Assembly: GCF_028369105.1 (NCBI RefSeq)
Contig: NZ_JAQNDO010000001.1
Span: forward strand, 7,410,501-7,474,500
Source: Polyangium mundeleinium
GTDB taxonomy: Bacteria > Myxococcota_A > Polyangia > Polyangiales > Polyangiaceae
Reading direction: 5' to 3'
DNA: 64,000 nt
Shown here: in pieces, positions 7,608-47,534 of the stretch
Position numbering within the stretch: position 1 is the first letter of the stretch
Layout: each line of letters opens with the position of its first letter
Notes under the pieces: generated by a model
What the model was told of the DNA's origin: nothing
The model's input: only the letters and a program-made list of their open reading frames with translations
Database searches by the model: none
Translations under genes and position numbers: made by a program

Positions 7608-7921
7608 ATTCCCCTTTGTCGGAACCTCCCTCGCCTCTGCACCGAGGTCGTTTCCGCGTTTCTGGACCACGCGCGGAGCCGTCTCCCAGGTCGTTCCCCT
7701 TTTTCGGAAGGCCCCCCGCCTCGTTTCCGGGAGGCTTCCCCTTTTTCGGAACGCCGCGCGACGCCGCCCCCGAGGCTCTTCCCACATCGTACAACGCGCC
7801 AGGATCCGCTTCCGGGGACGTTCCCAATTCTGGGAACACGTCCCGCCGCGGGGTGGGGCGCGTTCCGACAAAGGGGAACGAGCGTTTCGCCGTTTTCGCG
7901 GGCATTGTCCCTCCCGCAAAG
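7608..7921. repeat. Phased tandem array A: eight 18-bp near-palindromic cores every 42-43 bp
   Basis: Cores begin at 7608, 7651, 7693, 7735, 7778, 7820, 7862 and 7904, with steps of 43, 42, 42, 43, 42, 42 and 42. Typical cores are GTTCCCCTTTTTCGGAAG (7693) and GTTCCCAATTCTGGGAAC (7820); the half-sites GTTCC and GGAAC are inverted. The core at 7862 is the reverse complement of the core at 7608 apart from one end base. Intervening 24-25 bp are GC-rich and poorly conserved. The two 43-bp steps break any reading frame. Confidence 0.82.
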
Positions 7922-8051
7922 CACGTCCCCACGTCCCGCGCCCCCGTTGCACGGACCGGGCGCCTCCTCGGGTACATTTCGTCGGGCGCGTCCTGACGAC
8001 GCGACCCACCGCGCGGCCGCTCGCAGCGGGCCCCGCGGACCGGTCAGCACC

Positions 8052-8226
8052 GTTGCCGCTCGAGACAGCCGCGCTCCGGGTTCTGCTGGCCCCCCGGCTC
8101 CTTCGTCGGCCTGTTTGAAAAACTGCGCACCGCGCAGTTTTTCAACCCTGGGTCCAGCGCCTCGCTGGTCCGGGGTCGAGGGGGCGGACAGCCCCCCGCG
8201 GGGTCCGGGGCGGAGCCCCGGGCGCG
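8052..8226 (-). repeat. Right terminal inverted repeat of the 1-kb composite element
   Basis: Inverted copy of the left module: H4 at 8115-8145 (arm TTGAAAAACTGCGC, loop ACC), H3 CCAGCGCCTCGCTGG at 8154-8168, H2 with arms GGGGGC/GCCCCC near 8179-8197 and H1 near 8206-8222. H1 and the H4 loop differ from the left copy while all stems stay paired. Confidence 0.88.
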
Positions 8227-8270
8227 GCGCTTCGGGCCACCGCTCGCTCGCTTCACCGCTCCCATGGCCT

Positions 8271-8276
8271 TAGGGC
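8271..8276 (+). promoter_or_regulatory. Candidate -10 element for kup (TAGGGC)
   Basis: The hexamer ends 10 bases before the kup ATG and there is no Shine-Dalgarno sequence between, consistent with a very short or absent leader. The match to TANNNT is partial. Confidence 0.3.
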
Positions 8277-8286
8277 TCTGCGTACG

Positions 8287-10191
8287 ATGACGGACGAACC
8301 CTCGAGGGCGGCTCAGCCTGGCGCGCCCGTGGCCCATGGCCCCCGCGCGGCTCTGCTCCTCGGCGCGCTTGGTGTCGTCTTCGGGGACATCGGCACGAGC
8401 CCGCTTTATGCGGTCAAGGAATGCTTCAGCCCGGCCGCCTCGCACCGGGTCGAGCCCACGCCGGAGAACATCCTCGGGATCCTGTCGCTGGTCTTCTGGA
8501 CGCTCCTGATGGTCGTGACGATCAAGTATCTCACGTTCATCATGAAGGCCGATAACCAGGGATCCGGCGGCATCATGGCGCTGCTCGCCCTGGTCCCGCC
8601 GCGAAAAAACAATCCGACGGGTCCGCTCGTCCTGCTCGTGCTCTTCGGCGCGTCCCTGCTGTACGGGGACGGCGTCATCACGCCCGCGATCTCGGTCCTC
8701 TCGGCCATGGAGGGCCTCGAGGTCGCGACCCACAAGCTGCGCCCGGCCGTCGTGCCGCTCACGGTCGCCATTCTGGTCGCGTTGTTTCTGGCGCAAAAGC
8801 GCGGAACCGGGGGGATCGGCAATGTCTTCGGGCCCGTCACGCTCGTCTGGTTCGTGACCATCGCCGTGCTCGGCGGGCGGTTCGTCGTGGCGAACCCGGC
8901 CGTGCTCGCGGCCGTGGATCCCCGCCACGCCCTACGGTTTTTCCTGGAACACGGCACGCACGGGTTCATGGTGCTCGGCGCCGTGGTCCTGTGCATCACG
9001 GGCGCGGAGGCGCTTTATGCGGACATGGGCCATTTCGGCCGCGGTCCGATCCGCGCCGCCTGGTACACCGTGGTCTGGCCGGCGTTGCTGCTCAATTATT
9101 TCGGCCAGGGCGCGATGCTCCTCGGAAACCCGGGCGCCGCGACGAACCCTTTTTATGCCCTCGTCCCCTCCTGGGCCCTCTACCCGACCGTGGCCATCGC
9201 AACGGCAGCCACGATCGTCGCCTCGCAGGCGCTCATCTCCGGGGCGTTCTCGCTCACCCAGCAGGCCGTGCAGCTCGGGTATTTTCCGCGCGTCAGCATC
9301 GTCCACACCTCGAAGCACGCCGAGGGGCAGATCTACGTCCCGGAGATCAACCGCGCGCTGCTCGTCCTCTGCGTGGCCCTGGTGCTCACGTTCCGCACGT
9401 CGAGCGCGCTCGCGGCGGCCTACGGAATCGCGGTCACGGGGACGATGGCCATCACGACGATCGTGTATTTCGTCGTGGTGCGGCAGCGCTGGGGCTGGCC
9501 GCTCTGGAAAGCCGTGCCGCCCGTTCTGGTTTTCCTGGTCATCGACATCTCGTTTTTCACGGCAAACGCGGCGAAGTTTCTCCACGGCGGCTGGTTCCCG
9601 GTCGTCATGGCGGCCGGCATTTTCACGGTGATGACGACCTGGAAGACGGGGCGGCGTATCCTCGGCGAGGCCTTCAAGGCCGATCTTTTGCCGCTCGAAC
9701 AATTCCTGGAGGACGTCACCCGACGAAATCCCTTCCGCGTGCACGGGACGGCGGTTTTCATGGCCTCGAACCCGCACGGGACGCCGCCCGTCCTCTTGCA
9801 CCATTTCAAGCACAACCAGGTCCTCCACGAGCAGGTCGTGCTGCTGTCGGTCACGAGCGAGCGGGTCCCCGAGATCCCGCCCGAGGAGCGCATCAGCGTC
9901 ATCGACAAGGGGAACGGTTTTTATCGGGTGCGGGCGCGGTACGGCTTCATGCAGACGCCGCACGTGCCGAGCGTGCTGCTCGCCTGCAAGGCGCACGGGC
10001 TCGGCATCGAGCTCAAGCGCACGAGTTATTACCTCGGCCGCGAGACGCTCTTGCCCACGGGGCGGTCGAAGATGATGCGCTGGCGAAAAGGCCTGTTCGC
10101 CTTCATTTCCCGAAACGCGCGCCCCGCGACGGCCTACTTCGGGCTGCCGCCGGGCCGCGTGGTCGAGTTCGGGATGCAGATCAACCTGTGA
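8287..10191 (+). CDS. kup: Potassium uptake protein of the Kup/HAK/KT family
   Basis: A 634-residue inner-membrane K+ transporter, probably proton-coupled as for E. coli Kup. The diagnostic N-terminal motif GVVFGDIGTSPLYA lies at about residues 29-42, and GSGGIMALLALV follows the second helix. About twelve membrane segments occupy residues 20-440, and a soluble C-terminal domain of roughly 180 residues follows (VFMASNPHGTPPVLLHHFKH), as in the family. It stands alone: the 1-kb composite repeat precedes it and a chain of four hairpins follows it before gmhA. Confidence 0.95.
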   Translation: MTDEPSRAAQPGAPVAHGPRAALLLGALGVVFGDIGTSPLYAVKECFSPAASHRVEPTPENILGILSLVFWTLLMVVTIKYLTFIMKADNQGSGGIMALLALVPPRKNNPTGPLVLLVLFGASLLYGDGVITPAISVLSAMEGLEVATHKLRPAVVPLTVAILVALFLAQKRGTGGIGNVFGPVTLVWFVTIAVLGGRFVVANPAVLAAVDPRHALRFFLEHGTHGFMVLGAVVLCITGAEALYADMGHFGRGPIRAAWYTVVWPALLLNYFGQGAMLLGNPGAATNPFYALVPSWALYPTVAIATAATIVASQALISGAFSLTQQAVQLGYFPRVSIVHTSKHAEGQIYVPEINRALLVLCVALVLTFRTSSALAAAYGIAVTGTMAITTIVYFVVVRQRWGWPLWKAVPPVLVFLVIDISFFTANAAKFLHGGWFPVVMAAGIFTVMTTWKTGRRILGEAFKADLLPLEQFLEDVTRRNPFRVHGTAVFMASNPHGTPPVLLHHFKHNQVLHEQVVLLSVTSERVPEIPPEERISVIDKGNGFYRVRARYGFMQTPHVPSVLLACKAHGLGIELKRTSYYLGRETLLPTGRSKMMRWRKGLFAFISRNARPATAYFGLPPGRVVEFGMQINL

Positions 10192-10239
10192 AGCCAGGAC
10201 AGCGCGCCCCCCTCCCCAGGGTCCGAGCTCTGTTGTCCC

Positions 10240-10346
10240 GAGGGGGACGCCTCGCGTCCCCCTCTCGCCCGGGCAAAGCCCGGACGATTCACCCCCCGAG
10301 GGAAGATCGCTTCGCGATCTTCCGAGCATCGAACCGGTCGATGCTC
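10240..10346. repeat. Chain of four consecutive perfect hairpins between kup and gmhA
   Basis: 10240-10264: arm GAGGGGGACGC, loop CTC. 10269-10283: CCGGGC, loop AAA, GCCCGG. 10301-10323: arm GGAAGATCGC, loop TTC. 10324-10346: arm GAGCATCGA, loop ACCGG. The last two abut with no gap. The layout (short GC hairpins, then a longer palindrome) resembles the H1-H4 modules although the sequences differ. It may terminate kup transcription, but there is no T-run. Confidence 0.8.
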
Positions 10347-10352
10347 TAGAAC
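10347..10352 (+). promoter_or_regulatory. Candidate -10 element for gmhA (TAGAAC)
   Basis: CTAGAAC with a 9-base gap to the gmhA ATG and no Shine-Dalgarno sequence. The same hexamer and the same gap precede the rlmN-like gene. Confidence 0.45.
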
Positions 10353-10361
10353 GACGGCCCC

Positions 10362-10979
10362 ATGTCGTCCACCCACGATTTCGTCGACACCTACCTGCGC
10401 GAGACGGCCGAGATCGCCCTCGGTACGAGCCGGCAAGACCTGACGGCCGTCATCGACATCCTCTTCGATGCCTGGAAAAACGACCGGACCATCTACACCT
10501 GCGGCAACGGCGGCAGCGCGGCGAACGCGAGCCACCTCGCCTGCGACATCGCGAAGTTCACCTGGGTGGAAGGCAAAAAGCGCTTCAAGTGCCGCTCGCT
10601 CTGCGACAACGCGGCGCTCCTCAGCGCGCTCACGAACGACGTGGGCTTCAACCGAATCTTCCTGGAGCAGCTCGACGGCTCGATGGGCCCGGGCGACGTG
10701 CTCGTGTGCCTGAGCGTGCACGGCGGGTCGGGCGCGGACAAGGCCGGGCCCTGGTCGCAAAATCTGGTTTCCGCAGCCGATTTCGTGAAGAAGCACGGCG
10801 GCAAGGTGGTCGCGCTCGTGGGCTACGACGGCGGCGCGCTCCGGCAGATGGCCGACGCGTCCATCATCGTCCCGAGGACCTCGGGCGGGCATACGTCGAC
10901 GCCGCACGTGGAGGGCTTCCACGAGGTCTACCATCACCTGATCTGCGAGCGGCTGCGGCAGATGGTGGCCGAAGCATGA
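10362..10979 (+). CDS. gmhA: Phosphoheptose (sedoheptulose 7-phosphate) isomerase, SIS domain
   Basis: A 205-residue cytoplasmic isomerase that converts sedoheptulose 7-phosphate to D-glycero-D-manno-heptose 7-phosphate, the first step to ADP- or GDP-heptose for cell-surface glycans. The SIS sugar-phosphate signature GNGGSAANASHLACD is at about residues 48-62, a second phosphate-binding stretch is CLSVHGGSG, and GGHTSTPHVEGFHEVYHH carries the His cluster typical of GmhA. Its stop overlaps the ATG of gmhB (ATGA). The start is supported by the CTAGAAC element 9 bases upstream. GmhA-like SIS proteins can act on other sugar phosphates, but the gmhB partner favours this role. Confidence 0.9.
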   Translation: MSSTHDFVDTYLRETAEIALGTSRQDLTAVIDILFDAWKNDRTIYTCGNGGSAANASHLACDIAKFTWVEGKKRFKCRSLCDNAALLSALTNDVGFNRIFLEQLDGSMGPGDVLVCLSVHGGSGADKAGPWSQNLVSAADFVKKHGGKVVALVGYDGGALRQMADASIIVPRTSGGHTSTPHVEGFHEVYHHLICERLRQMVAEA

Positions 10980-11614
10980 ACGGGCCCGCGCGCCCCGGCG
11001 TGATCCTCGACCGCGACGGGACGCTCATCGACTTCGTCCGCGACGCCGAGCTCGGCGCCGTGGTGAGCGCCTTCCACCCCGATCACATCCGCCTGTTGCC
11101 CGGCGTCGTGCAAGGGCTCGCGCTCCTGCAAGACGCGGGGTTTGTCTTGGCCATCGCCACGAACCAGCCGGGCGCGGCGAAGGGGCAGATCCCCGAGAGC
11201 GCCATCACCCGGACGAACCAGGCGCTCGTCGACGCGCTCGCCCGGGAAGGAATCCACATCGAGGCGGTGCGCGCCTGCTTGCATCACCCGGAAGGCGGGC
11301 CGGGCGGCGATCCCACGCTCGCCACGGACTGCGGGTGCCGCAAGCCGAAGCCGGGGATGTTGCTGTCGCTCGTGCAGGAGCTCGGGCTCGATCCGGCGCG
11401 CTCGTGGATGGTCGGCGACGCGGCGGTGGACGTGCTGGCGGCGCGCGGGGCGGGGCTTCGCGCGGGGCTCCTCTTCGAATGGGGGCGCTGCGAGATGTGC
11501 CCGGTGCGAGGGGGGTTCGACGAGATCCCGATGATCCGACCGGATGCCTCGGCGAGCCGGTTCGACGAGCTCGCCCGGCGCCTCCGAGATTCGCTCGCCA
11601 CGGCGCCGGGCTGA
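10976..11614 (+). CDS. gmhB: D-glycero-D-manno-heptose-1,7-bisphosphate 7-phosphatase (HAD family)
   Basis: A 212-residue HAD phosphatase of the heptose pathway. The catalytic pair is D12 and D14 in ILDRDGTLI; motif II is IATNQPG, and the metal-binding motif is MVGDAAVDVLAA. The zinc-binding loop that separates GmhB from histidinol-phosphate phosphatases is present: CLHHPEGG then CGCRKPKPG. The start is fixed by the ATGA overlap with gmhA; earlier residues in the open frame are a shadow of gmhA. The C-terminal 30 residues after MCPVRGG are a short extension. Confidence 0.9.
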   Translation: MNGPARPGVILDRDGTLIDFVRDAELGAVVSAFHPDHIRLLPGVVQGLALLQDAGFVLAIATNQPGAAKGQIPESAITRTNQALVDALAREGIHIEAVRACLHHPEGGPGGDPTLATDCGCRKPKPGMLLSLVQELGLDPARSWMVGDAAVDVLAARGAGLRAGLLFEWGRCEMCPVRGGFDEIPMIRPDASASRFDELARRLRDSLATAPG

Positions 11615-11665
11615 TCTATGCTCCGCCGCCCCCGGCCCCCGCCGGGCGCGTAGCGCGGAGTGGAC

Positions 11666-12316
11666 ATGCTCTTTCTCGACAGCTCGGATCCCAAGGAGAT
11701 CAAGGACGTCTTCGCCTGGGGGGTGATCGCCGGGGTCACGACGAACCCGCTCATCCTGGCGCGCGAGGCAGGCGCGGCGGATCTCGAAGAGCGCATCCGC
11801 GCGGTCGTCGCCGCCTCGAAGGGCCCGGTCTCCGTGGAGCTCGTGAGCGAGACCGAGGGCGCGATGCTGGAAGAAGCCCTCCGCTACCACGCGTGGGCGC
11901 CGTCCCGGATCGTGATCAAGGTGCCGTTCGGCGAGGCAGGGCTGCGCGTGACGCACGCGCTCACGACGCAGGGGATCGAGACGAACGTGACGTGCCTCAT
12001 GAGCTTCAACCAGGCCTACCTGGCGGCGCTCGCGGGCGGGACGTACGTGTCGATCTTCAGCGGGCGGGTGCGGGACATGGGCTACGACGTGCGGCCCGTC
12101 ATCGCCGAGACGCGGGCGCAGCTCGATCGGGAGAAGCTCGGGGCGAAGATCATCGTGGGGTCGATCCGGCACATCCTCGACGTGAACGAGGCGCTTTCAC
12201 ACGGGGCGCACGTGGTGACGGTGCCGCCGGCCATCCTGCGGAAGATGCTGCACAACCCGAAGACCGACGAGACGATCCGCGAGTTCAACGCGGCCTGGGC
12301 GAGCCGTGCTAAGTAG
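11666..12316 (+). CDS. Transaldolase / fructose-6-phosphate aldolase family protein
   Basis: A 216-residue small transaldolase-type aldolase. MLFLDSSDPKEI and GVTTNPLIL are the family's N-terminal signatures, and the Schiff-base Lys is K85 in RIVIKVPFG, the position found in E. coli FSA. VSIFSGRVRDMGYD and the length also fit. ATG 11666 is preferred over GTG 11660 because GGAG lies 5 bases before it and the protein then starts as homologues do. A transaldolase can make sedoheptulose 7-phosphate, the substrate of the gmhA product, so its place in this gene set makes metabolic sense. The 3' end overlaps the next gene by 11 bases. Confidence 0.88.
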   Translation: MLFLDSSDPKEIKDVFAWGVIAGVTTNPLILAREAGAADLEERIRAVVAASKGPVSVELVSETEGAMLEEALRYHAWAPSRIVIKVPFGEAGLRVTHALTTQGIETNVTCLMSFNQAYLAALAGGTYVSIFSGRVRDMGYDVRPVIAETRAQLDREKLGAKIIVGSIRHILDVNEALSHGAHVVTVPPAILRKMLHNPKTDETIREFNAAWASRAK

Positions 12317-13805
12317 CCCCGCCGTGACGGCAGACGGCACTTCCACGGCCGAGGGCGCGACGAACACGAAGTACGTCGTCGAGGAGCAAAACATGGCGCT
12401 CGTGGGCGCCATCGGGCGGCCGCGGCGGGTGCTCGACGTGGGCTGCGGGGTGGGTCTGAACGGCGAGGCGGCGAAAAAGCGCGGCGCGCACGTGACCGGG
12501 ATCGAGATCGTCCCGGCCTCGATCGACCGGGCCAAGGAGCGGCTCGACGAGGTGCTCGCGATCGACGTGACGAGCGACGAGGCCGTGACGAAGGGCCTCG
12601 CCGGCCGGAGTTTTGATCTCCTGCTCTTCGCCGACATGCTGGAGCACGTAGCCGATCCGATCGCGGTGATCCGGCGGCTGCTCCCGTACCTGGAGGACGG
12701 GGGGCACGTGATCGTGTCGCTGCCGAACGTGGCGGCGTGGACGGTGCGCCTGGGGCTGCTCGCGGGGAAGTTCGTGTACACGCAGAGCGGGATCCTCGAC
12801 GACTCGCACCTGCGCTTCTTCACGCGCGAGACGGGCCGGCAGATGCTGGAGCGCGCGGGGCTCGAGGTGCTGCGGCTGGAGCAGAACCCGATGCTCGTAC
12901 GCGCCGCGAAGGACGTGGTGCTGTCCGCGCAACGGGCCGTGGCGCCCGGCGGGACGCCCGATCCGGAGAGCCTGCGCAAGTCGCTCCCGTACAAGCTCTA
13001 CCAGGGGCTCGTGCGCCCGGTGGAGGACGTGGTCGCGGCACGCGCGCCGGAGCTTTTGTCCTTCCAGAACGTGTACGTCGCCCGCAAGCCGCCGAAGGCG
13101 CGAAAGCTCAGCCTGACCGTCGGCATGTTGACGATGAACGAGGAGGACAGCATCGAGGCGATGATGGGCGAGATCCGGAGGGTCGCGCCCGACGCCAAGA
13201 TCCTGTGCGTCGACAGCTCGACGGATCGGACGCCCGAGATCGCGGCGCGGCTCGGCGCGCGCGTGCTGCGGCAGCTCCCGCCGCGCGGGCATGGGCCGGC
13301 GATGGAGCTGCTCATGTACAGCGCCGCGGCCGAGAGCGACCTCTTGATCTACCTCGACTGCGACTTCACCTACCCGGCCGATTACATCCCGGTGCTGCGG
13401 CGGATCGTCGAGGAAGAAGGCGTGGATGTGGTGAACTGCGCCCGCACGCGCACGCGGCCGGCGGCGATGCCGCTGCCGAACTACCTGGCGAACCGGTCGT
13501 TCGCGGCCCTCGCGCACGTGATGCACGGCATCCCGACGTGCGACGTGCACAGCGGCATGCGGGCGTACCGGTCGAGCATGATGCGCGCGTTCGATTTCGA
13601 CGGCGAGGGCGACGCCCTCCCCATCGACACGCTGCTCTTCCCGGCGAAATGCGGCTACCGCGTGGTGGAGATGCCCATCGACTACCAGGAGCGCGTGGGG
13701 CAATCGAAGCTGCGGAAGATCGCCGGCACGGTCTGGACGATGATCCGGCTCGTGAACGCGCTGCCCGTGGGGCAGCGCGGTTCGTCGCGGTACGAGCTCC
13801 GGTAG
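12306..13805 (+). CDS. Fusion of SAM-dependent methyltransferase and family 2 glycosyltransferase
   Basis: A 499-residue two-domain protein. Residues about 20-240 are a class I methyltransferase with SAM motif VLDVGCGVG, acidic IEIVPAS, and LLLFADMLEHVADP, like UbiG or sugar-chain methyltransferases. From about residue 253 a GT2 domain begins (LSLTVGMLTMNEEDSIEAM), with the nucleotide-sugar acidic motif YLDCDFTYPADY and a late VGQSKLRKIAGT typical of polyprenyl-phosphate glycosyltransferases; there is no C-terminal membrane anchor. Start GTG 12306 overlaps the aldolase gene; GTG 12324 is possible. Context suggests modification and transfer of a heptose or related sugar for the envelope, which is inference. 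Confidence 0.87.
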   Translation: MLSSPAVTADGTSTAEGATNTKYVVEEQNMALVGAIGRPRRVLDVGCGVGLNGEAAKKRGAHVTGIEIVPASIDRAKERLDEVLAIDVTSDEAVTKGLAGRSFDLLLFADMLEHVADPIAVIRRLLPYLEDGGHVIVSLPNVAAWTVRLGLLAGKFVYTQSGILDDSHLRFFTRETGRQMLERAGLEVLRLEQNPMLVRAAKDVVLSAQRAVAPGGTPDPESLRKSLPYKLYQGLVRPVEDVVAARAPELLSFQNVYVARKPPKARKLSLTVGMLTMNEEDSIEAMMGEIRRVAPDAKILCVDSSTDRTPEIAARLGARVLRQLPPRGHGPAMELLMYSAAAESDLLIYLDCDFTYPADYIPVLRRIVEEEGVDVVNCARTRTRPAAMPLPNYLANRSFAALAHVMHGIPTCDVHSGMRAYRSSMMRAFDFDGEGDALPIDTLLFPAKCGYRVVEMPIDYQERVGQSKLRKIAGTVWTMIRLVNALPVGQRGSSRYELR

Positions 13806-13823
13806 GCCGGGCCGCTCCGCCGG

Positions 13824-15026
13824 TCAGCGGCGGGGCGCCGTCGGCGCCGTCTTCGGGGGGGGCGTGCTGTCGCCCGAGAGGAGCGACAGACCGGCCACGA
13901 TCGTCCCGATGCCGAGAAGCGCGAGCACGACGATCACGAGCGCCGAGCTCTTGCGCGGTTCTTCCGGCGTGACCGTGACGGGCAGGACCTCCGGCGGGCG
14001 CAGGGCCGCGTCGCGAACGTCGGCCGGGATGCGATCGGAGATCTCCTTGAGCGAGGAGAGCTTCGGCCGGCGCATCGAACCCGTGGTCGTGGTCGCGCCG
14101 AACGGCCGCGATCCCGGCGACGAGCTGCGCTGCGTGACGAGCGGGAACGAAGTGCGGCTCGTGCGCTCCTCGATCTCGACGCCGAGGGCGCGCTCGAACT
14201 CGTCGGCGAGCTCCTTGGCCGCCGAGTAACGCGCCGTGGGGTCCCGCTGGAGGGCCTTGGCGAAGAAGGAGTCGATCGAGGGGGGGAGGCCGGGCACGAG
14301 CGTGGTGATCGGCTCGAATCGGCCCTCTTCGATGGCGTTGCCGAAGCTCTCGAGGTTCTGCCCGCTGAAGGGGGCGCGTCCGCTGAGCGCGTAATACGCG
14401 AGGACCGCGAGGGTCCAGAGATCGGCGCGGAAATCAACGTCCTTCTGGCCGAAAATCTGCTCCGGGCTCATGAACTCGGGCGAGATCATGTGCGTCGCGT
14501 CGCTCGTGGTCCGGCCCATCGAGGAGATGCCCGCGCGGACCGAGAGGCCGAGGTCCAGGACCTTCGCCTCGAAATCGCCGCCCTCGGGTTCGGTGAGGAA
14601 GACGTTGCCGGGCTTCAGGTTCCGGTGGACGAGGCCGAGGAGATGCGCCTTGACGAGGCCCTTGGCGAGCTGCGAGACGAGGCGCGCGGCGTCCTTCGGC
14701 GCCAGCGGGCCGGTCCTCGCGATGCGGCTGCCGAGGTCTTCCCCTTCGAGCAGCTCCATCACGAGGTAAGGCATGCCGGTGCGCGTCAGGCCGTGCTCGA
14801 GGATCTGCGCGACGTGCGGGCTCTTGATCTGCCGCGTGGCGACGTCCGCCTCGCGCTGAAAGCGGTGGAGGGGCGAGGAGTTGCGCGACAAGGCGCGCCC
14901 CATGAGCTTGACGGCGACGTCCTTGCCGAAGCCTACGTGCTCGGCGACCCACACCTGGGATTTGCCCTCCTGCCCGAGGTGCCTCGAGAGCCGCATCTTG
15001 GGAGTGATCTGGTCTCCTTCCAACAT
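13824..15026 (-). CDS. Ser/Thr kinase-like membrane protein with HRN in place of HRD (possible pseudokinase)
   Basis: A 400-residue Hanks-type kinase fold followed by a linker and one membrane helix (SALVIVVLALLGIGTIVAGL). The nucleotide-binding Lys is K40 (VAVK), the helix C Glu is E59, and a DLG motif replaces DFG at 158-160. The catalytic loop reads HRNLKPGN (134-141): the catalytic Asp of HRD is Asn, while K138 and N141 remain. The glycine loop (GQEGKSQVW) is also degenerate. Catalysis is therefore doubtful and a scaffold or sensor role is possible. It is convergent with the methyltransferase-glycosyltransferase gene. ATG 15026 is preceded by GGAAGCGAG. Confidence 0.9.
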   Translation of the reverse strand: MLEGDQITPKMRLSRHLGQEGKSQVWVAEHVGFGKDVAVKLMGRALSRNSSPLHRFQREADVATRQIKSPHVAQILEHGLTRTGMPYLVMELLEGEDLGSRIARTGPLAPKDAARLVSQLAKGLVKAHLLGLVHRNLKPGNVFLTEPEGGDFEAKVLDLGLSVRAGISSMGRTTSDATHMISPEFMSPEQIFGQKDVDFRADLWTLAVLAYYALSGRAPFSGQNLESFGNAIEEGRFEPITTLVPGLPPSIDSFFAKALQRDPTARYSAAKELADEFERALGVEIEERTSRTSFPLVTQRSSSPGSRPFGATTTTGSMRRPKLSSLKEISDRIPADVRDAALRPPEVLPVTVTPEEPRKSSALVIVVLALLGIGTIVAGLSLLSGDSTPPPKTAPTAPRR

Positions 15027-15153
15027 CTCGCTTCCGTGGCGCGGTCCCCGAGACGCCGGGCGTGCCGGCGCGCGGAGAGGGCTTTCTCACTCGACTCGAC
15101 GTTACATCACGCAGCGGGCCCAAAGTAAAGAAGCGCGCCCGGGAAGGTCGGTT

Positions 15154-16245: not shown

Positions 16246-16255
16246 CGTCTTGCCC

Positions 16256-18936: not shown

Positions 18937-18945
18937 GCGCGCGCG

Positions 18946-18951
18946 ACGGTA
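18946..18951 (-). promoter_or_regulatory. Candidate -10 element (TACCGT) for the FadL-like operon
   Basis: Read on the minus strand, TACCGT ends 9 bases before ATG 18936 with no ribosome-binding site between, the same spacing as several other first genes in the window. Confidence 0.45.
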
Positions 18952-19023
18952 GACGCATGCAGGGCCGGAAGGAAGAGGGAGCGGAGGCCGCGACGCGCGG
19001 CGACGTGCGGGACGGATCGAGGC

Positions 19024-19929: not shown

Positions 19930-19937
19930 CAACACGC

Positions 19938-19943
19938 AGGGTA
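19938..19943 (-). promoter_or_regulatory. Candidate -10 element (TACCCT) for the Uma2-like gene
   Basis: On the minus strand TACCCT ends 8 bases before ATG 19929; this spacing, repeated elsewhere, is why that start was chosen over GTG 19935. Confidence 0.35.
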
Positions 19944-20000
19944 GCAGGATCCGCGGAGGATGGGGAGAACGAGACGAGTGCGTCCGGGGTCGCGCTCGAC

Positions 20001-20006
20001 TAGAAC
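20001..20006 (+). promoter_or_regulatory. Candidate -10 element (TAGAAC) for the rlmN-like gene
   Basis: CTAGAAC ends 9 bases before GTG 20016, identical in hexamer and gap to the gmhA upstream element; no Shine-Dalgarno sequence intervenes. Confidence 0.45.
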
Positions 20007-20015
20007 GATGCCGCC

Positions 20016-28117: not shown

Positions 28118-28193
28118 TGGGGCGTCGCCCCAGGCCCCAGGAGGGGGCGGACAGCCCCCCGCGGGGTCCGGGGCAGCGCCCCGGCGCGGCGGG
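28118..28193 (-). repeat. Partial hairpin module (H1/H2 parts)
   Basis: Contains TGGGGCGTCGCCCCA, an H2-type hairpin with arms GGGGGC/GCCCCC and an H1-type CCGGGGCAGCGCCCCGG. No H3 or H4 is present in this copy. It abuts the phased array to its right. Confidence 0.75.
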
Positions 28194-28485
28194 GGCTCAC
28201 CTACCCCCGCGCGCTTCGTCGAAGGACTCGGATCACGGCTCGCCTGCCCCCGCGCGCGTCGTGACCACGGGAGGGACGGGGCGTCCCGCCAGGGAACATG
28301 GCGTGACTACCGGAGGATCACGGCTCGGCTTGGTGTGTACGGTGGCAGCGCGGGGGAGGATCGGAGCGTCCTTCGCGTGGGATGGACGCGGAGCGGGAGA
28401 GGGACGGGGTCACCTGGCCGCGTTGGGTCGCGGAGCGGGGGTGGATCACGGCTCTGGGCATGGGTTTCATCGGGAAGCCGCTGCG
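28188..28485. repeat. Phased tandem array B: seven units of 42-43 bp
   Basis: Unit starts at 28188, 28230, 28273, 28315, 28358, 28401 and 28443 give steps of 42, 43, 42, 43, 43 and 42. Units at 28230, 28315 and 28443 begin GGATCACGGCTC, those at 28273 and 28401 begin GGGACGGGG, and 28358 begins GGATCGGAGCG. Units at 28188 and 28230 share CCCCCGCGCGC in register. The sequence is unrelated to arrays A and C, but the period is the same. It is not a multiple of three, and no gene is credible here. Confidence 0.78.
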
Positions 28486-28486
28486 C

Positions 28487-28589
28487 TGGGGCCTTGCCCC
28501 AGGCCCCACCAGGGGCTGTCCGCCCCTGGACCCGGACCAGGGCCAGCCCTGGACCCCTGGGCATCGACTGCGCGAAGCGCAGTCGATGC
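28487..28589 (+). repeat. Complete four-hairpin module H1-H4
   Basis: H1 TGGGGCCTTGCCCCA (28487-28501), H2 with arms CCAGGGGC/GCCCCTGG (28509-28529), H3 CCAGGGCCAGCCCTGG (28537-28552) and H4 with arm GCATCGACTGCGC and loop GAA (28561-28589). The order equals that of the left end of the 7.2-kb element, while the stem sequences of H1, H3 and H4 differ yet stay paired. Confidence 0.85.
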
Positions 28590-28629
28590 GGGGAAATTGC
28601 TTGTAACTGTCCGCCCCCCTTTGCAGCCA

Positions 28630-28871
28630 GGGGCTGGACCCAAGCTCGATGAACTGCGCGATGCGCAGTTCATCGAACAGCCAGGGTCAAGACCGGCAAC
28701 GACCCTGCCAACCGAGACAGCCGCGTGGCGGGTTCGGCTGGCAACCCGGCTTCTTCGTCGGCCTGTTTGAAAAACTGCGCACCGCGCAGTTTTTCAACCC
28801 TGGGTCCAGCCCCTGGCTGGTCCGGGGTCGAGGGGGCGGACAGCCCCCCGCGGGGTCCGGGGCAGCGCCCC
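28630..28871 (-). repeat. Double hairpin module, inverted relative to 7283-7433 and ending 25 bases before a lipoprotein gene
   Basis: H4-type palindrome at 28646-28676 (arm TCGATGAACTGCGC, loop GAT), a linker containing GGTCAAGACCGGCAACG, a second H4 at 28767-28797 (arm TTGAAAAACTGCGC, loop ACC), then H3 CCAGCCCCTGGCTGG (28806-28820), H2 (about 28832-28849) and H1 GGGGCAGCGCCCC (28859-28871). The reverse complement of 28646-28797 aligns with 7283-7433 along its whole length. Confidence 0.85.
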
Positions 28872-28895
28872 GGCGGCGGCGCCACGTGAACTGGG

Positions 28896-34175: not shown

Positions 34176-34187
34176 GCCCTGCCGGGG

Positions 34188-35291: not shown

Positions 35292-35436
35292 CACGTCGGG
35301 GCGCCCGTGAGCGCTCGGCAGACCATACGCCGGCCGCGGTCCGAGGTCGAGAGCGCCGCGCGACGTTTCAGCACGTTGCCGACGACTGGGCTTGCCCCCC
35401 GTCCGTCAAACCGTGGTACTAAGCGAGGTAGAAACG

Positions 35437-36090: not shown

Positions 36091-36106
36091 TCTCTCGCGC
36101 CTCCGA

Positions 36107-36128
36107 GGGCCTCGATCCTGCGAGGCCC
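36107..36128. terminator. Candidate terminator hairpin after the lipoprotein gene
   Basis: Perfect 8-bp arms GGGCCTCG / CGAGGCCC around ATCCTG, 17 bases past the stop; no T-run follows, so assignment is weak. Confidence 0.35.
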
Positions 36129-36268
36129 CGTGCACGCTCCCGCCTCGGCAAGCCCGGATCTTCGGGACCGCCTCGAACGGCCATTTCACGCCTTCGTGGC
36201 GGAGAAAGCGGCCTGGATGCTAGGATGGCGCATCGACGCCGTCTCTGCGGCGCTCGCCGGGCCTTCCG

Positions 36269-38904: not shown

Positions 38905-38917
38905 GAGCCCATCGGCC

Positions 38918-40126
38918 TTGGCCACACCTCGCTCTTCGCCGCTCTACCACGACGACCCGAAGCTCTTCTCGTTCCGCGGCGTCGTCGTCGCCCACGAGTC
39001 CCACGCCGGCCGCCCCAGCGTGCGGCTCGATCGCACCGCGTTTTACCCCGAGTCCGGCGGGCAGATGGCCGATCGTGGACGCCTCGACGAGGCCGCCGTC
39101 ATCGACGTGCAGGTCGACGACGAGGGCCGCATCCACCACGTGCTCGAAGGGCCCCTGCCCGCGATCGGCGCCGATGTGCATGGCACGATCGACAAGCCGC
39201 GCCGCCTCGTCCACATGGCCCAGCACACGGGCCAGCACATGCTCTCGCGCGCGCTCGCCGACGTCGCCCGCGCCGAAACCGTCTCCTCGCGCCTCGGCGA
39301 GAGCGCGTGCACGATCGACCTCGACGTCACCACCCTCGACGAGCGCGCCGCGGCCGAGGCCGAGGCCCTCGTCAACGCCGTCATCGATGACGACGCCCCG
39401 ATCCGCGCGTTTTTCCCCTCGGAGGACGAGCTCCGCGCGCTCCCGCTGCGCAGGCAGCCCAAGGTGCACGACAACGTGCGCGTCGTCGTGATCGGCGACT
39501 TCGACGTCTCGCCTTGCGGGGGCACGCACTGCACGAACACCGCGCAGGTCGGCTTCGTCCGCATCGACGCGCTCGAGCGAACCAAGGGCAAGATGCGCGT
39601 CACGTTCTCCGCGGGCGTGCGGGCGCGGACGAAGCTCTCGCGCGAAGCCGACGTCGTGCGCGCGCTCGCCCGCGAGCTCACGTGCGGCCCCGAGGACGTC
39701 CCCGCGGGCATCGAAAAACTGCGCCGCGAGCTCGACGAGGCGCGTCAGGCGCTCGGGCGCGTGCGGGGCCGCGTGGCCGCGGCGATCGCCGACGCGCTCG
39801 TGAAGGACGCGCGGGCGCGGGGCGAACGCGTGGTAATCGGCGTCGTCGAAGATGCATCCCTCGATCTCGTGCGCGCGGTGGCCGGGCGCATCACGGCCGA
39901 GGCGGATCTCGTCGCGTTGCTCGCGGGGGAAGCCGACGGCGGCACGATCGTGCTCGCGGCGCGCGGATCGTCGAGCGACTTCGACTGCGGCGCCTTCTTG
40001 AAGCGCGCGGCGACCGCGGCGGGCGGTCGCGGCGGCGGCAGACCCGAGCGCGCCGAGGGCCGCTTGCCCGCGGGGATCGACTGGACGACGATCGCGGCCG
40101 CGACGCTCGCCACGCCCGGACGCTGA
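38918..40126 (+). CDS. Alanyl-tRNA editing protein (AlaX-like, with DHHA1 domain)
   Basis: A 402-residue protein homologous to the editing part of AlaRS, expected to deacylate Ser- or Gly-tRNA(Ala) in trans. The editing domain has FYPESGGQMADRG, the zinc-binding pair HTGQHML and CGGTHC (both motifs complete) and RVTFSAGVRA. The C-terminal part resembles DHHA1 (GGTIVLAARGSS, FDCGAFLKRAA, GGGRPERAEGRL). No aminoacylation domain is present. The start is TTG 38918, with AGGAG 10 bases upstream; there is no ATG or GTG before the domain begins, and the upstream open frame is a shadow of the hydrolase gene. Length fits the long AlaX class. Confidence 0.88.
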   Translation: MATPRSSPLYHDDPKLFSFRGVVVAHESHAGRPSVRLDRTAFYPESGGQMADRGRLDEAAVIDVQVDDEGRIHHVLEGPLPAIGADVHGTIDKPRRLVHMAQHTGQHMLSRALADVARAETVSSRLGESACTIDLDVTTLDERAAAEAEALVNAVIDDDAPIRAFFPSEDELRALPLRRQPKVHDNVRVVVIGDFDVSPCGGTHCTNTAQVGFVRIDALERTKGKMRVTFSAGVRARTKLSREADVVRALARELTCGPEDVPAGIEKLRRELDEARQALGRVRGRVAAAIADALVKDARARGERVVIGVVEDASLDLVRAVAGRITAEADLVALLAGEADGGTIVLAARGSSSDFDCGAFLKRAATAAGGRGGGRPERAEGRLPAGIDWTTIAAATLATPGR

Positions 40127-40138
40127 GCGCGCGCTCGT

Positions 40139-41254
40139 TTACAGGCCGCTGCAGCTGTCGAGCGCGGGATCGGTCTCGGCCGGGCATCCGGCGGACGGCA
40201 GCGGGGAAGGCTTCACCGCCCCGAGCATGGCGGGATCCGCCTCGAAATCCATGGCGAACGAGAGCGCCTCGCAGACCTTGTTCTTGTCCGTCGCGTCAGC
40301 CAGCAGCACGTCGGCCGCGCGGCAAGTGATCTGCCGCGTCGCCGGGTAGAACAGCGCGTCCTTGCAGATCGGGTTTCCCTTCGTGTCGCGGAAGCTCGCG
40401 AGCATGGGGAACAGCTCCGATACCGGGAGCTTCGCGCCGATCTTGCCCTCGCGTAGCTGGTACAGACCGGTCACAGTCCGATCGATGCGCGCCACGAGCA
40501 CCAGGTTCGACAGCGCGGCGTACATGGATGTGAACGCGCCGTCCGAGATCGGCAGCGGCGCCTCGGGGAGCCGGGCCACGAGCTTGTTGCCCGTCACGTA
40601 GGCCGTGCCGTCGATGAACCTCGGCGCGTAGGGGTCTGCCTGCACCGGTGCGACGAACTCCTGCCGGATCGACCACGCATCCGCGCCTTGCCATTCCGGT
40701 GACGCCGCGAGACCCAGGCTCCCGTACCAGCCGACCTCCACCTGATCGTCGTCGCTCGCGCCGTTGTACCCTTGTACGCGGAGCAGCACGCTCCACTGGC
40801 CGGACTCGGCCAGGTCGCGCAGGAAGCTCGACATGTCATCGATGTTGAGGATGTACGCGAGGGCGCCGAAGAGCGCGTAACTCGCCCCGTCGTGACCCCT
40901 GTCGTCGTCGCAGTACCCTTTGTCGTCCGACGGATCGATCGACTCGCAGCCCCGCTTGTCCTCGGTGCACGAGCACAGCCCGTCGAGGTTCAGCCCGGGG
41001 AGCGCGTCGTTCACGCCTTTTCCCATGTCGATCGTGCGTAGCGCCACGACGAACCCCTCGGCGCCGCCCGCGTCGTCCACGGCGGGCGGATCGGGGACCT
41101 CGTCGCGCACGCACATCATCGGCGTCGCGCCGCCCGCGCCTCCGTGACCTGCCCCGAGCGAGAGCTCGTCCGGGATCCCGGACACGAGCTGGCAACCGGC
41201 TGCCCACGAAAGTACGACGAAGCCCCCTCTCGTCGCGCGCCTCCGAACCGCCAT
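40139..41254 (-). CDS. Hypothetical lipoprotein, Cys-containing
   Basis: A 371-residue lipoprotein with a strong ribosome-binding site (AGGAGGAG five bases before ATG 41254). Signal GGFVVLSWAAGCQLVSG has lipobox WAAGC. The mature protein has an acidic Cys-rich segment (DGLCSCTEDKRGCESIDP), long mixed alpha/beta stretches, and Cys pairs near the end (ITCRAADVL, AGCPAETDPALDSCSGL). The style (GIPDELSLGAGHGGAGG after the lipobox) is common in myxobacterial surface lipoproteins. I do not recognise a catalytic family. Divergent from the lipoprotein gene at 41438. Confidence 0.8.
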   Translation of the reverse strand: MAVRRRATRGGFVVLSWAAGCQLVSGIPDELSLGAGHGGAGGATPMMCVRDEVPDPPAVDDAGGAEGFVVALRTIDMGKGVNDALPGLNLDGLCSCTEDKRGCESIDPSDDKGYCDDDRGHDGASYALFGALAYILNIDDMSSFLRDLAESGQWSVLLRVQGYNGASDDDQVEVGWYGSLGLAASPEWQGADAWSIRQEFVAPVQADPYAPRFIDGTAYVTGNKLVARLPEAPLPISDGAFTSMYAALSNLVLVARIDRTVTGLYQLREGKIGAKLPVSELFPMLASFRDTKGNPICKDALFYPATRQITCRAADVLLADATDKNKVCEALSFAMDFEADPAMLGAVKPSPLPSAGCPAETDPALDSCSGL

Positions 41255-41437
41255 CGCTCCTCCTGAAGGACAGGACGCTCGCGCGTAAAAATCCCCGCGC
41301 AGGCCCGCGATCGAGAAGATCACGATTGGGGCGGGCCGTCCACCGCACCCCGAAGGCCGCCGCGCACGTCCGGGGCGCGCGAGAGAGCGCGTGTGTTTTG
41401 CCTGGCATCGAGCCGGGCCATCGGCTACGCCGGCCCC

Positions 41438-42604
41438 ATGCGCCGCCGGACCCTCGCGCTCGTGCCGCTCGTCGCCCTCGCCCTCGCGAGCACGGCGTGC
41501 GACGAGACGTCCGACACCGACACCGACACCGACACCACGACGACCGTGCCGACCAGCATCCTCGTCGAGCCGAGCCTCTTCCTCGGCGACGTGCCTTGCT
41601 CCGCCGCGACCGGCGCCATGCAGAGTTACGTGGCCACCGTCCTCGACGTCACCGACGCGGCCGCGCCCTTCCCGCTCCCCTCGTCGCCGCCCGTCACCTG
41701 CACGGCGAGCGTCATCTTCCGGCAGATCCTCGTCGGCCACGTCTACCGCGTCCAGATCGACGGCTACGACGTCCCCGCCGCCGAGCTCACGCCCGTCGGG
41801 GGCACCTCCTCCGGCAGCCGCAGCATGGTCCGCCGCGCTGCACCTGCCGCGGGCACCGTCACGCCGCTCTGGTCGACCTACTGCAAGGACATCACCGGTC
41901 AGAAGAACGTCCGCTCCGTGCCGGAGACGTGCGAAGAGCTCGCGCCGCTCTCGACCGAGACCGGCGTGCTCATCAATCCGCGCGCCACGCTCGCTGGCAC
42001 GAGCTCCATCCCCGGCCTCGATCTCGCCTGCAAGACGAGCTCGATCGATCCGCAGGGCAACCCCGTGATCACCGGGGAGGTCGCGAGCTTCGACGTGCGC
42101 CCGGCCGATCCGGCCTTGCCCCCGCTCGTGAACCTCCCCTGCAAGAACCCCGCGCCTGCGCCGTACACGCAGAACATCAAGCCCGGCGCGACCTACACGT
42201 TCCGCATCGAGGCACGCGCCGAGACGGGCGGACCCGTCACGTGGGGCGCTTCCTGCACGGCGATCGCCGTGGAAGGCCTCGTCGTTCATGCGCTCTGCGA
42301 TCCGCTGAGCAAGGACGGCGCGCTCGACCTCTCCCTCGCGGACGTCCTCGCGGCCGCGGGCACCTCGTGCGCGAAGGAGAACGTCGCGACGTACGACGCC
42401 CTGCTCGGCGCGCCCAGCTCCCTCGAGGCCGACGGCGTCGCTTGCGGCAAGCCCCTCCGCTTCACGCCGATCGAACCCGGTGCCTACCCGAAGATCAAGC
42501 TCGTCGGCCGCGACGCTGCGGGCGCGGCGGTCGTGACCGCCTCCTGCCTCGCCGAAATCACCCCCGGCGCGGTCAGCACGGCCACTTGCACGCTCGGGCC
42601 TTGA
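41438..42604 (+). CDS. Hypothetical lipoprotein with Asp/Thr repeat after the lipobox
   Basis: A 388-residue lipoprotein: signal ALVPLVALALASTACDE (lipobox ASTAC) followed by an Asp-Thr run (SDTDTDTDTTTT), then a beta-rich body with about eleven Cys, probably disulfide-bonded, and Ig-like strand patterns (YVATVLDVTDAAAPFPLP, TYTFRIEARAETGGPVTWG). TACGCC ends 6 bases before ATG 41438, a possible leaderless -10. Further upstream codons in frame would disrupt the signal peptide. No domain family recognised; divergent from another lipoprotein gene. Confidence 0.78.
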   Translation: MRRRTLALVPLVALALASTACDETSDTDTDTDTTTTVPTSILVEPSLFLGDVPCSAATGAMQSYVATVLDVTDAAAPFPLPSSPPVTCTASVIFRQILVGHVYRVQIDGYDVPAAELTPVGGTSSGSRSMVRRAAPAAGTVTPLWSTYCKDITGQKNVRSVPETCEELAPLSTETGVLINPRATLAGTSSIPGLDLACKTSSIDPQGNPVITGEVASFDVRPADPALPPLVNLPCKNPAPAPYTQNIKPGATYTFRIEARAETGGPVTWGASCTAIAVEGLVVHALCDPLSKDGALDLSLADVLAAAGTSCAKENVATYDALLGAPSSLEADGVACGKPLRFTPIEPGAYPKIKLVGRDAAGAAVVTASCLAEITPGAVSTATCTLGP

Positions 42605-42705
42605 GCCTCCCCGACAACGGCCCAGACGGACCGACCGAGCCAGCGCCGCGACGCACCCAAACCTGCGTACAAAACCCTCGAACCTGATTGCAGGTTCACG
42701 GGTCG

Positions 42706-42711
42706 TATACT
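42706..42711 (+). promoter_or_regulatory. Candidate -10 element (TATACT) for gyrA
   Basis: TATACT is the closest match to the TATAAT consensus noticed in the window. It follows a small hairpin (AACCTG-attg-CAGGTT, 42681-42696) that may end transcription from the lipoprotein gene. No good -35 was found. Confidence 0.45.
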
Positions 42712-42792
42712 ACCTGAGAGCGTCCTCCGGCCGGCGTGGACGAGGCTTTTTTCAAGCCTCCTCGCGCGTCAGGCCCAGGCCCGAGCGGCGGT

Positions 42793-45402
<2,610 letters not shown>

Positions 45403-45503
45403 CATCCCCCCTCCCCTGGCACCTCGCGTGACCGGGAGCTAACGTAAGCACTGTCACACAGCATCGCCGGGGCTCACCCGGTCCCCCGGGGGGGATCCGG
45501 GGG

Positions 45504-45690
45504 TTTGGGGGCGTCGTTCGGCGTGTCCGAATGAGGTTCCCGAGCGTCGACGGGGTTTGGGGGCGTAGCGCGGCGTGTCCGCGCGACGCCCCCAAGCGTC
45601 AACGGAGAGGTTTGGGGGCGTAACGCGGCGTGTCCGCGCGACGCTCCCAAGCGTCAACGGAGGGGCTTGGGGGGGTGCGCCGCGCAGGAT
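45504..45690. repeat. Tandem hairpin repeat, three copies plus a partial, period 52-55 bp
   Basis: Copies start at 45504, 45556 and 45611, with a partial one at 45666. Each has an outer stem built on TTGGGGGCGT / ACGCCCCCAA (weaker in the first copy) and an inner stem around loop CGTGT: TTCGG/CCGAA in copy 1 and GCGCGG/CCGCGC in copies 2 and 3. The bases change together across the stem. Together with the sequence up to 45726 this fills the gene-free interval between gyrA and the sugar transferase; nothing else is visible in it. Confidence 0.85.
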
Positions 45691-45726
45691 CGGATGCGTG
45701 TGGGCCCTCCATTGCTGGGGGGCAAC

Positions 45727-47097
45727 ATGCTCGAGCTATTTCGGTCGCGTCGCCGTGCCATTGTATGGTTCGTCGAGGCTGGCCTGCTCGTATCGCTCGT
45801 CTGCGCGGGTGCGGCGGCGATCGAGGGGCATCGCGGCGTCGTCACGCTCGCCCGCGTGCTCGACGCTGCGGCGATCACGCTCGTGGCGCAGGCGTCGCTC
45901 TATTACCATGGCCTTTACGGACCCTCGCCCATTCGCGACCTCCGTACCCTGGCCTGGAAAGTCGCGCGTGCGCTCGCTGTCTCGGCTCTCCTGCTCTGGG
46001 CCCTCTTCCAGGGTTTTTCGGTCGACGCGGAAGAGCGCTTCGCGGCCGTGGCGCTCGGGCTCATGGCCGGCGCGCTCGTCTTGCCGCTCTTTCGCACCGG
46101 GCTCGCGCGGGCGGCGGCGAGTGATCGCCTCTGCAAGCGCACCCTGGTCCTCGGCTCGGGGCCGCTCGCCGACGCCGTGATCACCGGCGCGCGGACCCAT
46201 GACACCGGCGGCATGCGATTCGTCGGCCGCCTCGTACAGGAGGGCGACCCGGGCCGCGCCGCCCCCGACGTGCTCGGCAGCTACGACGAATTGCCGCACA
46301 TCGCGTCCGCGCACGGCATCCGGCACATCATCGTCTGCGCTGCGGATCGCCGGGGCAAATTGCCCATCAATGTCCTCCTGGAGCTCAAATTCCGGGGCGT
46401 CGAGGTCGAGGAAGGCGTGGAGTTTTACGAGCGCATCACGGGCAAAATCTTCGTCCGTGAGCTTCGCCCGAGCCAGCTCGTCTTTGCGCACGGCTTTCAC
46501 GTCGCGAAGCGCACGCTCCTCGGAAAGCGCCTGCTCGACGTCGTCTGCGCCTCGATCGGCCTCGTGCTGTCGGCGCCGCTGATGCTGCTCACGGCGCTCG
46601 CGATCCGGCTCGATTCGGCGGGCCCGATCCTTTATTCGCAGGTGCGGAGCGGCGTGTTCGGCCAGCCCTTCACCATTTACAAGTTCCGCTCGATGCGCAC
46701 GGATGCGGAGGCCGATGGCAAGGCGCGCTGGGCGTCGGAGGACGATCCGCGCGTGACGCGGGTGGGCCGCGTCATTCGCAAGACGCGGCTCGACGAGCTC
46801 CCGCAGCTCTGGAACGTGCTCGCCGGCGACATGAGCCTCGTCGGCCCGCGTCCCGAGCGCCCGAGCTTCACCGAGGAGCTCGAAAAGGCCATTCCGTTCT
46901 TCCGGCAGCGCCTCTTCGTCAAGCCCGGCCTCACGGGCTACGCGCAGGTCCGCTACCATTACGGCGCCACGACCGAGGACCAGCTCGAAAAGCTGCAGCA
47001 CGACCTGTTCTACATCAAGACGCTGTCGGTCTGGTTCGACCTGTCGATTCTGCTCGATACGATCAAGGTGGTGCTGCTCCGGATTGGATCGCGCTGA
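45727..47097 (+). CDS. Polyprenyl-phosphate sugar-1-phosphate transferase (initiating exopolysaccharide glycosyltransferase)
   Basis: A 456-residue WbaP/WcaJ/EpsL-type enzyme that would start a lipid-linked polysaccharide repeat. The N-terminal membrane helices and a CoA-binding-like segment ([19 protein letters not shown]) precede the catalytic domain: helix [20 protein letters not shown], then [50 protein letters not shown] and [10 protein letters not shown], all signatures of the bacterial sugar transferase family. ATG 45727 (MLELFRSRR) begins just before the first helix; ATG 45694 is possible. It opens a group of polysaccharide-related genes. Confidence 0.93.
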
Positions 47098-47244
47098 GAG
47101 GGTGTTCCACAGCGTAGCGCCGGGGTTTCACCCCGGACCCGACGAGGGGCTGTCCGCCCCTCGACCCGGACCAGGGCCAGCCCTGGACCTTTGGTGCATC
47201 GACCGCGACGCGGTCGATGCACAGGCGCATTGTGGAACACCCTC
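47098..47244. repeat. Four-hairpin module bounded by a perfect 14-bp inverted repeat
   Basis: Ends are GAGGGTGTTCCACA (47098-47111) and TGTGGAACACCCTC (47231-47244), exact inverted copies. Inside, in order: H1 CGGGGTTTCACCCCG (47121-47135), H2 GAGGGGCTGTCCGCCCCTC (47144-47162), H3 CCAGGGCCAGCCCTGG (47171-47186) and H4 with arm GTGCATCGACCGC and loop GAC (47194-47222). It starts right after the sugar transferase stop. Confidence 0.88.
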
Positions 47245-47250
47245 TGGCCT

Positions 47251-47534
47251 CGCTACGGCTCTCCACACGCGCAACGGGTGCGATCCCCACCTGGATCGCA
47301 CCCAGCGCCTCGCGCAACGGCGTCCCTCGACGTCTGGATCGCCCCTTGCGCCTCACGCAACCGGGTCGATGCCGACCTCGATCGCCCCCGGCGCCTCACG
47401 CAACTGGGTCGCTCAAGACCTCGATCGCCCCCGGCGCCTCACGTGCGAGGGTCCCTCGACGCCTGGATCGCCCCCGGCACCTCACACAACCGGTTCGATC
47501 GAGGCCTCGATCCACCCAGTTGCGCAAGCTGCCC
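47251..47534. repeat. Phased tandem array C: about six units of exactly 43 bp
   Basis: Unit starts at 47251 (diverged), 47294, 47337, 47380, 47423 and 47466, with a partial unit at 47509. Each full unit opens GATCGCNCCCNGCGCCTC and continues with CACGCAAC or a variant, followed by a less conserved 17-18 bp. Units 1 and 4 share TCCCTCGACG in the variable part; units 2 and 5 share TTCGAT or GTCGAT. 43 is not a multiple of three. The array starts six bases after the hairpin module ends. Confidence 0.85.

Follow-up and report, generated by a model that had tools for sequence, protein, structure and literature searches.

Plasmid iterons and viral EBNA1 sites are arrays of binding sites in helical phase, on which a protein assembles; they belong to a single replicon, carry one sequence, and repeat at ~21-22 or 30 bp. 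In F-plasmid sopC (parS-F), twelve 43-bp repeats contain ten 16-bp inverted repeats (PMC6238139), and the inter-REP segments that separate repetitive extragenic palindromes (REPs) in Stenotrophomonas show substantial length variation (PMC2817692). Here, we analysed a 64,000-nucleotide stretch of the 13.25-Mb genome of Polyangium mundeleinium (G000:C1:7410501-7474500), hereafter the window, in which an initial annotation had described three tandem arrays of unrelated sequence, one 42-43 bp period, and adjoining hairpin modules. We found that the shared spacing is real and extends well beyond these three arrays, which suggests a so far unrecognised type of DNA scaffold, on which proteins would line up along one helix face. 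Among the best-ranked matches in open PMC papers, no title or abstract start describes such an array class, and no open PMC paper combines 43-bp tandem repeats with myxobacteria.

Extent and regularity of the 43-bp class

The genome was sampled as 80 evenly stepped 20-kb stretches (1.6 Mb), which together with the window make 81 sequences and 1.66 Mb, 86% of which was marked as coding by a simple codon-model gene caller. An autocorrelation scan of the 272 intergenic regions that measure 230 bp or more unmasked a repeat signal above the threshold of z 5.5 in 48 of them: 25 have periods of the 43-series (43, 64, 65, 85, 86, 87, and 130), six of the 21-series (21, 42, and 63), and 17 have other periods, 15 of which are multiples of three and may be missed coding sequence (the remaining two are 55 and 103). 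The scan returns period 43 at z 21.8 for F-plasmid sopC (NC_002483), our positive control, and in a triplet-block shuffle of 30 of the 81 sequences, all 16 clusters above z 6 had a period that is a multiple of three (one 63, one 84), with none in the 43-series. Identical short dyads in intergenic sequence most often lie 42 bp apart (119 of 1354 distances), followed by 43 (83), 86 (74), 21 (70), and 84 bp (64), against a median of 4 per distance. Scaled from the 23 arrays in the 1.6 Mb, the genome would hold ~190 ± 40 arrays. BLAST sorted 26 arrays (the 25 and array 2 of the window) into 20 clusters; the sequence is thus family-specific, in keeping with the earlier view that it is particular to each locus. 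Intergenic arrays with 21-bp units also occur, some of them very regular (L033:14820-15183, L035:8470-9093, L093:1910-2721, and L099:11520-12152), and look like a two-turn form of the 43-bp lattice.

The step is almost base-exact. Steps left free between 33 and 53 bp and counted by leave-one-out in 24 arrays (two 64/65 arrays omitted, array 2 added) were 43 bp in 116 of 140 cases, and all others lay between 41 and 45 (three at 41, 12 at 42, eight at 44, one at 45); a finder that penalised other steps put 128 of the 140 at 43. The proposal of a common spacing of about four helical turns is thus borne out by both the 25 regions of the scan and these free steps. Pattern searches of six Polyangium genomes that allowed 31 gap lengths, with matches tallied by hand, gave the same picture. 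Pairs of GGGGCCTCCCC matched 84 times (77 at 43, four at 42, three at 44), and pairs of TTGC-N6-GCAA 46 times (35 at 43, four at 42, six at 33, one at 45). The 33-bp pair occurs once per genome and is near identical across all six (here at G000:C1:9437553-9437599). Pairs of TTCC-N8-GGAA matched 27 times in five of the six genomes (20 at 42, six of them from one array in G004, and seven at 43), and a fourth motif matched three times in a single genome, always at 43. Reversed-pattern controls of the TTGC search matched seven times in the six genomes. The GG pattern was found in one of 95 genomes drawn across the phylum, namely this one, no other Polyangium genome being among the 95.

Array families across species and their dyads

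For the TTGC family, 20 stretches were fetched at pattern matches, two of them from another genus, and 18 arrays were assembled from 16 of the 18 Polyangium stretches (L170 and L175 omitted) plus L057 and L081. These arrays have seven to 13 units each, weak end units included, with the site consensus TTGC-RYSSRY-GCAA and spacers that in most arrays bear little visible resemblance to one another. Of 103 sites for which a single best successor lies within 25-61 bp, 96 have it at 43 bp, four at 42, two at 39, and one at 54; a count with a small penalty and a 41-45 limit gave 147 steps at 43 and six at 42. The motif TTGCRYSSRYGCAA occurs seven times in the 1.66-Mb sample, always at array units of the two loci in it that hold TTGC arrays, and no solo sites were found there. 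The neighbouring genes are convergent at four, divergent at five, and tandem at six of 19 TTGC loci, and four loci lie at a stretch edge. One omitted stretch carries a broken TTGC element (L170:1173-1418), whose halves match others in rearranged order, possibly a recombination scar. The TTGC element as such has no match at E 1e-5 in plasmid and phage collections, and an origin from either was rejected on that ground.

Nine TTGC copies from four species, among them two pairs with common flanks, share a 301-bp core of exactly seven units (78-94% identity) in which none of the 36 pairwise alignments has a gap; in longer BLAST alignments, 22 of the 36 pairs are gapless and 14 have one to six gaps. 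Given at least 172 substitutions among the nine copies, the chance of zero core indels is ~3e-8 if indels are one tenth as common (a simple Poisson estimate). Core differences fall 622/652/593 by frame, without mod-3 bias, and 43 is not a multiple of three; a protein-coding tandem repeat was rejected on these grounds, and the arrays can be taken as non-coding, as first described. The ungapped copies and the clustering of the free-gap searches at 42-44 bp also uphold the earlier suggestion that the phase is selected. The spacing is common to many unrelated sequences and kept nearly to the base across species, which suggests a geometric constraint rather than one binding site.

A purely mutational origin, in which duplication preferring two- or four-turn steps builds arrays from arbitrary sequence that then decays, would account for the diverse units, for the existence of intergenic 21-bp and 42-bp arrays, and for arrays that are nearly perfect (L069 and L094, with lag-43 identities of 0.95 and 0.97). 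Neutral decay should, however, lose sites and gain indels, whereas the nine TTGC cores contain none and arrays with unlike spacers (by eye; L057 and L169) retain both the palindrome and the 43-bp step, which makes this origin quite improbable.

The TTCC family has thirteen copies in four Polyangium genomes (5, 6, 1, and 1), five of them in this genome. Twelve copies have eight units and one has ten, and the order of 42- and 43-bp steps is nearly constant. Three of the five copies here have orthologues by matching flanks in G003, and one of the three also in G005 and G001; the other two have no matching flank among the fetched loci. At the locus present in four species, each species has eight units of diverged sequence, and the array aligns together with the start of the right-hand gene, which has no Pfam match; the sequence just to the left does not align, and the left flank does exist in G003, shifted by ~550 bp.

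Several features of these families resemble selfish dispersed repeats, that is, non-autonomous 300-550 bp elements moved by a transposase or gene conversion, with a period set by transposase recognition and no host function. Members of the TTGC, TTCC, and GG families recur at several places per genome, and where unlike loci are compared, their homology mostly gives out close to the element edges. Arrays are also scarce between divergent gene pairs (4/25 against 97/220 regions, p = 0.009), as tolerated insertions would be, and commoner between convergent pairs (7/25 against 23/220, p = 0.02; 21 stretch-edge regions omitted from both counts). Yet visual inspection of the nine aligned TTGC copies, whose left edges vary, revealed neither the constant terminal repeat nor the target duplication of a MITE-type transposable element; decaying selfish copies should not be free of core indels, and the orthologous TTCC arrays keep their unit number in four species despite sequence divergence. 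The RAYT domain Y1_Tnp has no match in this genome (other transposase families were not searched), and RAYT-driven REP elements were rejected for that reason; the domain is likewise absent from G002 and G004, with one match each in G003 and G005 and two in G001. We regard a selfish origin as unlikely, though it is the rival to be taken most seriously.

Symmetry is the second property shared by many arrays. Logos that pool both array orientations make symmetry by themselves, and oriented sets were used for TTGC and TTCC. A dyad at p <= 0.05 is present in 15 of 24 unit profiles (combined p 2e-12, with some arrays related). When the nine TTGC copies are oriented alike, the next-best centre of symmetry is 21.5 bp away from the best one, and the GG family (53 hand-copied matches) has it 21.0 bp away. 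Across the 24 single arrays, each in a single orientation, the mean symmetry score is +0.40 at 21.5 bp and between -3.1 and -1.4 at other distances of 8-21 bp. In part of the families, dyad axes thus recur every two helical turns.

Dyads could also be hairpins of a repeated, structured RNA. Twenty-five sampled arrays fold with a mean z of -2.14, compared with -0.75 for 25 other intergenic stretches (20 shuffles each), and the inner positions 5/8 and 6/7 of the TTGC dyad show a Watson-Crick excess over shuffles, so a structural role is possible. At positions 4/9, however, letters pair in 56 of 126 cases against 57.6 in shuffles, and because pairing there is no commoner than in shuffles, we take the TTGC dyad as a dyad in DNA and not as an RNA stem. 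Array 1 of the window folds no better than its own shuffles, Rfam has 0 matches at gathering score in the window, and the gene context of arrays is mixed; a transcribed RNA is very improbable.

Samples from other genomes (100-200 kb each, coding and intergenic sequence pooled) contain arrays with periods that are not multiples of three: 85 and 122 in G024; 43, 44, 41, 17, 23, and four of 71-73 in G036; and 43, 41, and 125 in G048. The sample from G023 has no such array, and 100 kb of the Polyangium genome G003 has one of period 64. TTGC pairs outside the genus occur once each in nine genomes, at nine different spacings (one of which is 43), and G036 has nine pairs, all at 42. The TTGC arrays L187 and L188 of G036 have period 42 and, at the midpoint, a CCCGA-N4-TCGGG or CCGAA-type dyad, with the second-best centre at 21.0 bp in both. 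Among the 80 matches listed in a TTGC scan of named genomes, three are from Polyangium and most others span two 42-bp steps. The sharp 43-bp period is established only for Polyangium, and a period of ~41-44 recurs elsewhere. Two further observations from outside the genus are a 41-bp array in G036 (L131:8370-8741), with a conserved block of ~19 bp and the rest variable, and sets of three TTGC-N6-GCAA sites at 42-bp steps in other bacteria (L189-L304), perhaps coding repeats.

Window arrays, hairpin modules, and genome position

The arrays and modules of the window are as follows (window coordinates; "." marks features given no strand).

7204..7500, strand ".": four-hairpin module left of array 1, a dispersed repeat not shown as part of the array class
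7567..7878, strand ".": array 1, a member of the TTCC family, with a TTCC-N8-GGAA-type dyad in every one of its eight units (degenerate in some); coordinates set by hand
8038..8225, strand ".": four-hairpin module right of array 1
28141..28187, strand ".": module fragment left of array 2
28188..28485, strand ".": array 2, weak 42-43 bp periodicity
28481..28875, strand ".": four-hairpin module right of array 2
47117..47220, strand ".": partial module left of array 3
47233..47533, strand ".": array 3, seven units of exactly 43 bp, dyad p 0.005

The single 42-43 bp period ascribed to all three arrays is clear in two of them. Array 1, first described at 7608-7921, has z 7.9 at lag 42 and steps of 42, 43, 42, 42, 43, 42, and 42 between its TTCC-N8-GGAA sites, and array 3, first described at 47251-47534, has z 12.1 at lag 43, with all steps 43. 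Array 2 is weakly periodic (z 3.1 at lag 43, 4.2 at lag 85) and stays, with 5.1, below the 5.5 threshold of the intergenic scan; a dyad looked for there was not found (p 0.78). Array 1 has five genome copies including itself, array 2 has two others (94% and 82% identity; three including itself), and array 3 has one other (75%; two including itself). BLAST among the sampled arrays joined array 2 to L042, and arrays 1 and 3 to none. Window positions 7540-7605, just left of array 1, have short matches of 42-62 bp in four genomes of other genera. A separate tandem hairpin-like repeat of the GGGGTTTGGGGGCG type, with a unit of ~50-55 bp, occurs at three places (window 45498-45684, L042:442-594, and L042:7356-7487), one copy being on the opposite strand.

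Modules do adjoin all three window arrays, as the initial annotation had noted in proposing a composite element of hairpin module and array, and with the window included, modules are found in 6/25 array regions compared with 22/247 others (p = 0.03). Outside the window the comparison is 4/23 against 21/240 (Fisher p = 0.25), or 4/19 against 9/118 among regions of at least 400 bp (p = 0.08); conversely, six of the 28 module-bearing intergenic regions hold a 43-series array, and two of these six are in the window. A small enrichment of modules at arrays is possible. The composite element is not supported by this comparison and is now the least probable of the explanations weighed here: 19 of the 23 arrays outside the window have no module beside them, the kind of result by which the initial annotation would have its module part refuted. 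Slippage from modules, suggested as a possible source of the arrays, is unlikely for the class on the same count.

The six genes flanking the window arrays encode a GH5 cellulase, a K+ transporter, a short-chain dehydrogenase, a sugar transferase, and two proteins without a Pfam match. The genome has a single DnaA_C match, at 11.65 Mb. Of the 23 arrays in the unbiased sample, 12 fall in the half of the genome opposite to it (p = 1.0), and an origin or terminus bias was rejected; of 24 copies mapped for the TTGC, GG, and window families, which are mutually related and hand-counted, 20 fall there (p = 0.0015).

A candidate protein lattice compared with known systems

On balance, we lean towards reading the arrays as DNA-level lattices for protein assembly, which we think somewhat probable. 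Units of 42-43 bp often contain a short palindrome (site A), to which some families add another half-way (site B), so that dyad axes would recur about every 21.5 bp, two helical turns, and would present themselves on one helix face. A dimeric DNA-binding protein may occupy both sites and form a polymer, or wrap the DNA, over ~300-550 bp, and the various array families would have distinct readers, probably paralogues that share one assembly geometry. Exact spacing on duplex DNA, tolerance of many sequences, and a reach of 300-550 bp fit a dimeric protein that assembles at two-turn steps. The likely output would be chromosome architecture or insulation, like that of a sopC-type partition complex, rather than control of single promoters; folding, segregation, insulation, and maintenance of the arrays themselves are all candidate roles. 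More tentatively, and more likely wrong than right, Polyangium may possess scaffold sites with many recognition sequences on one lattice (dyads every 21.5 bp), for each of which a candidate family of polymerising DNA-binding proteins would supply a dedicated reader, as a bacterial counterpart of the arrays that serve as insulators or tethers in organising very large genomes. If a protein lattice does read the spacing, large bacterial genomes hold a class of architectural elements that annotation has missed.

Several observations weigh against a protein lattice. No binding protein was found, the genome having two ParB_N matches (other centromere-binding folds were not searched), and ten neighbouring genes that were tested have no function in common. 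Nine of the 24 unit profiles lack a significant palindrome. The second-best centre of single arrays lies at 21.0-21.5 bp in six of 24 and at 11.0 bp in five; oriented TTCC units show the half-way dyad weakly, and in five single TTGC arrays it is not clear. The inner-pair excess of the TTGC dyad and the wider spread of periods in other genera (17 to 125 bp) belong here as well. Indels per substitution in array and flank of three orthologous pairs are mixed (0.077/0.280 and 0.070/0.284, with the reverse, 0.218/0.081, in L174-L183), a comparison we do not rely upon because the flanks include unalignable sequence.

Among described systems, a protein lattice on these arrays would have its closest precedent in F-plasmid sopC, whose 43-bp tandem repeats each carry a palindrome, as many of the Polyangium units do. 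sopC, however, is one plasmid locus beside sopA and the ParB gene with one recognition sequence, whereas here an estimated 190 arrays lie on the chromosome, and 26 of them fall into 20 clusters. A ParABS centromere has an adjacent parA/parB operon, which is not seen among the six window flanking genes, and a cognate ParB for each site class, which the two ParB_N matches do not provide for 20 clusters (with the limit on folds given above); an expansion of ParB was rejected on this count.

REP elements and bacterial interspersed mosaic elements (BIMEs) are likewise intergenic palindromes at many loci, and PMC2817692 describes regularly spaced palindrome clusters among them. They differ in that inter-REP length varies in Stenotrophomonas (PMC2817692), whereas the Polyangium step is nearly base-exact, is shared by many unrelated families, and occurs in a genome without a Y1_Tnp match. 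TTGC arrays resemble clustered regularly interspaced short palindromic repeats (CRISPR) in pairing a short, partly palindromic repeat with a variable spacer at a fixed period, but the TTGC site is 14 bp, the spacers are not unique, being homologous between dispersed copies and across species, and other families have near-constant spacers. Iterons and EBNA1 sites share the phased arrangement of sites, and differ from the Polyangium arrays in that they do not form a chromosome-wide class with many sequences.

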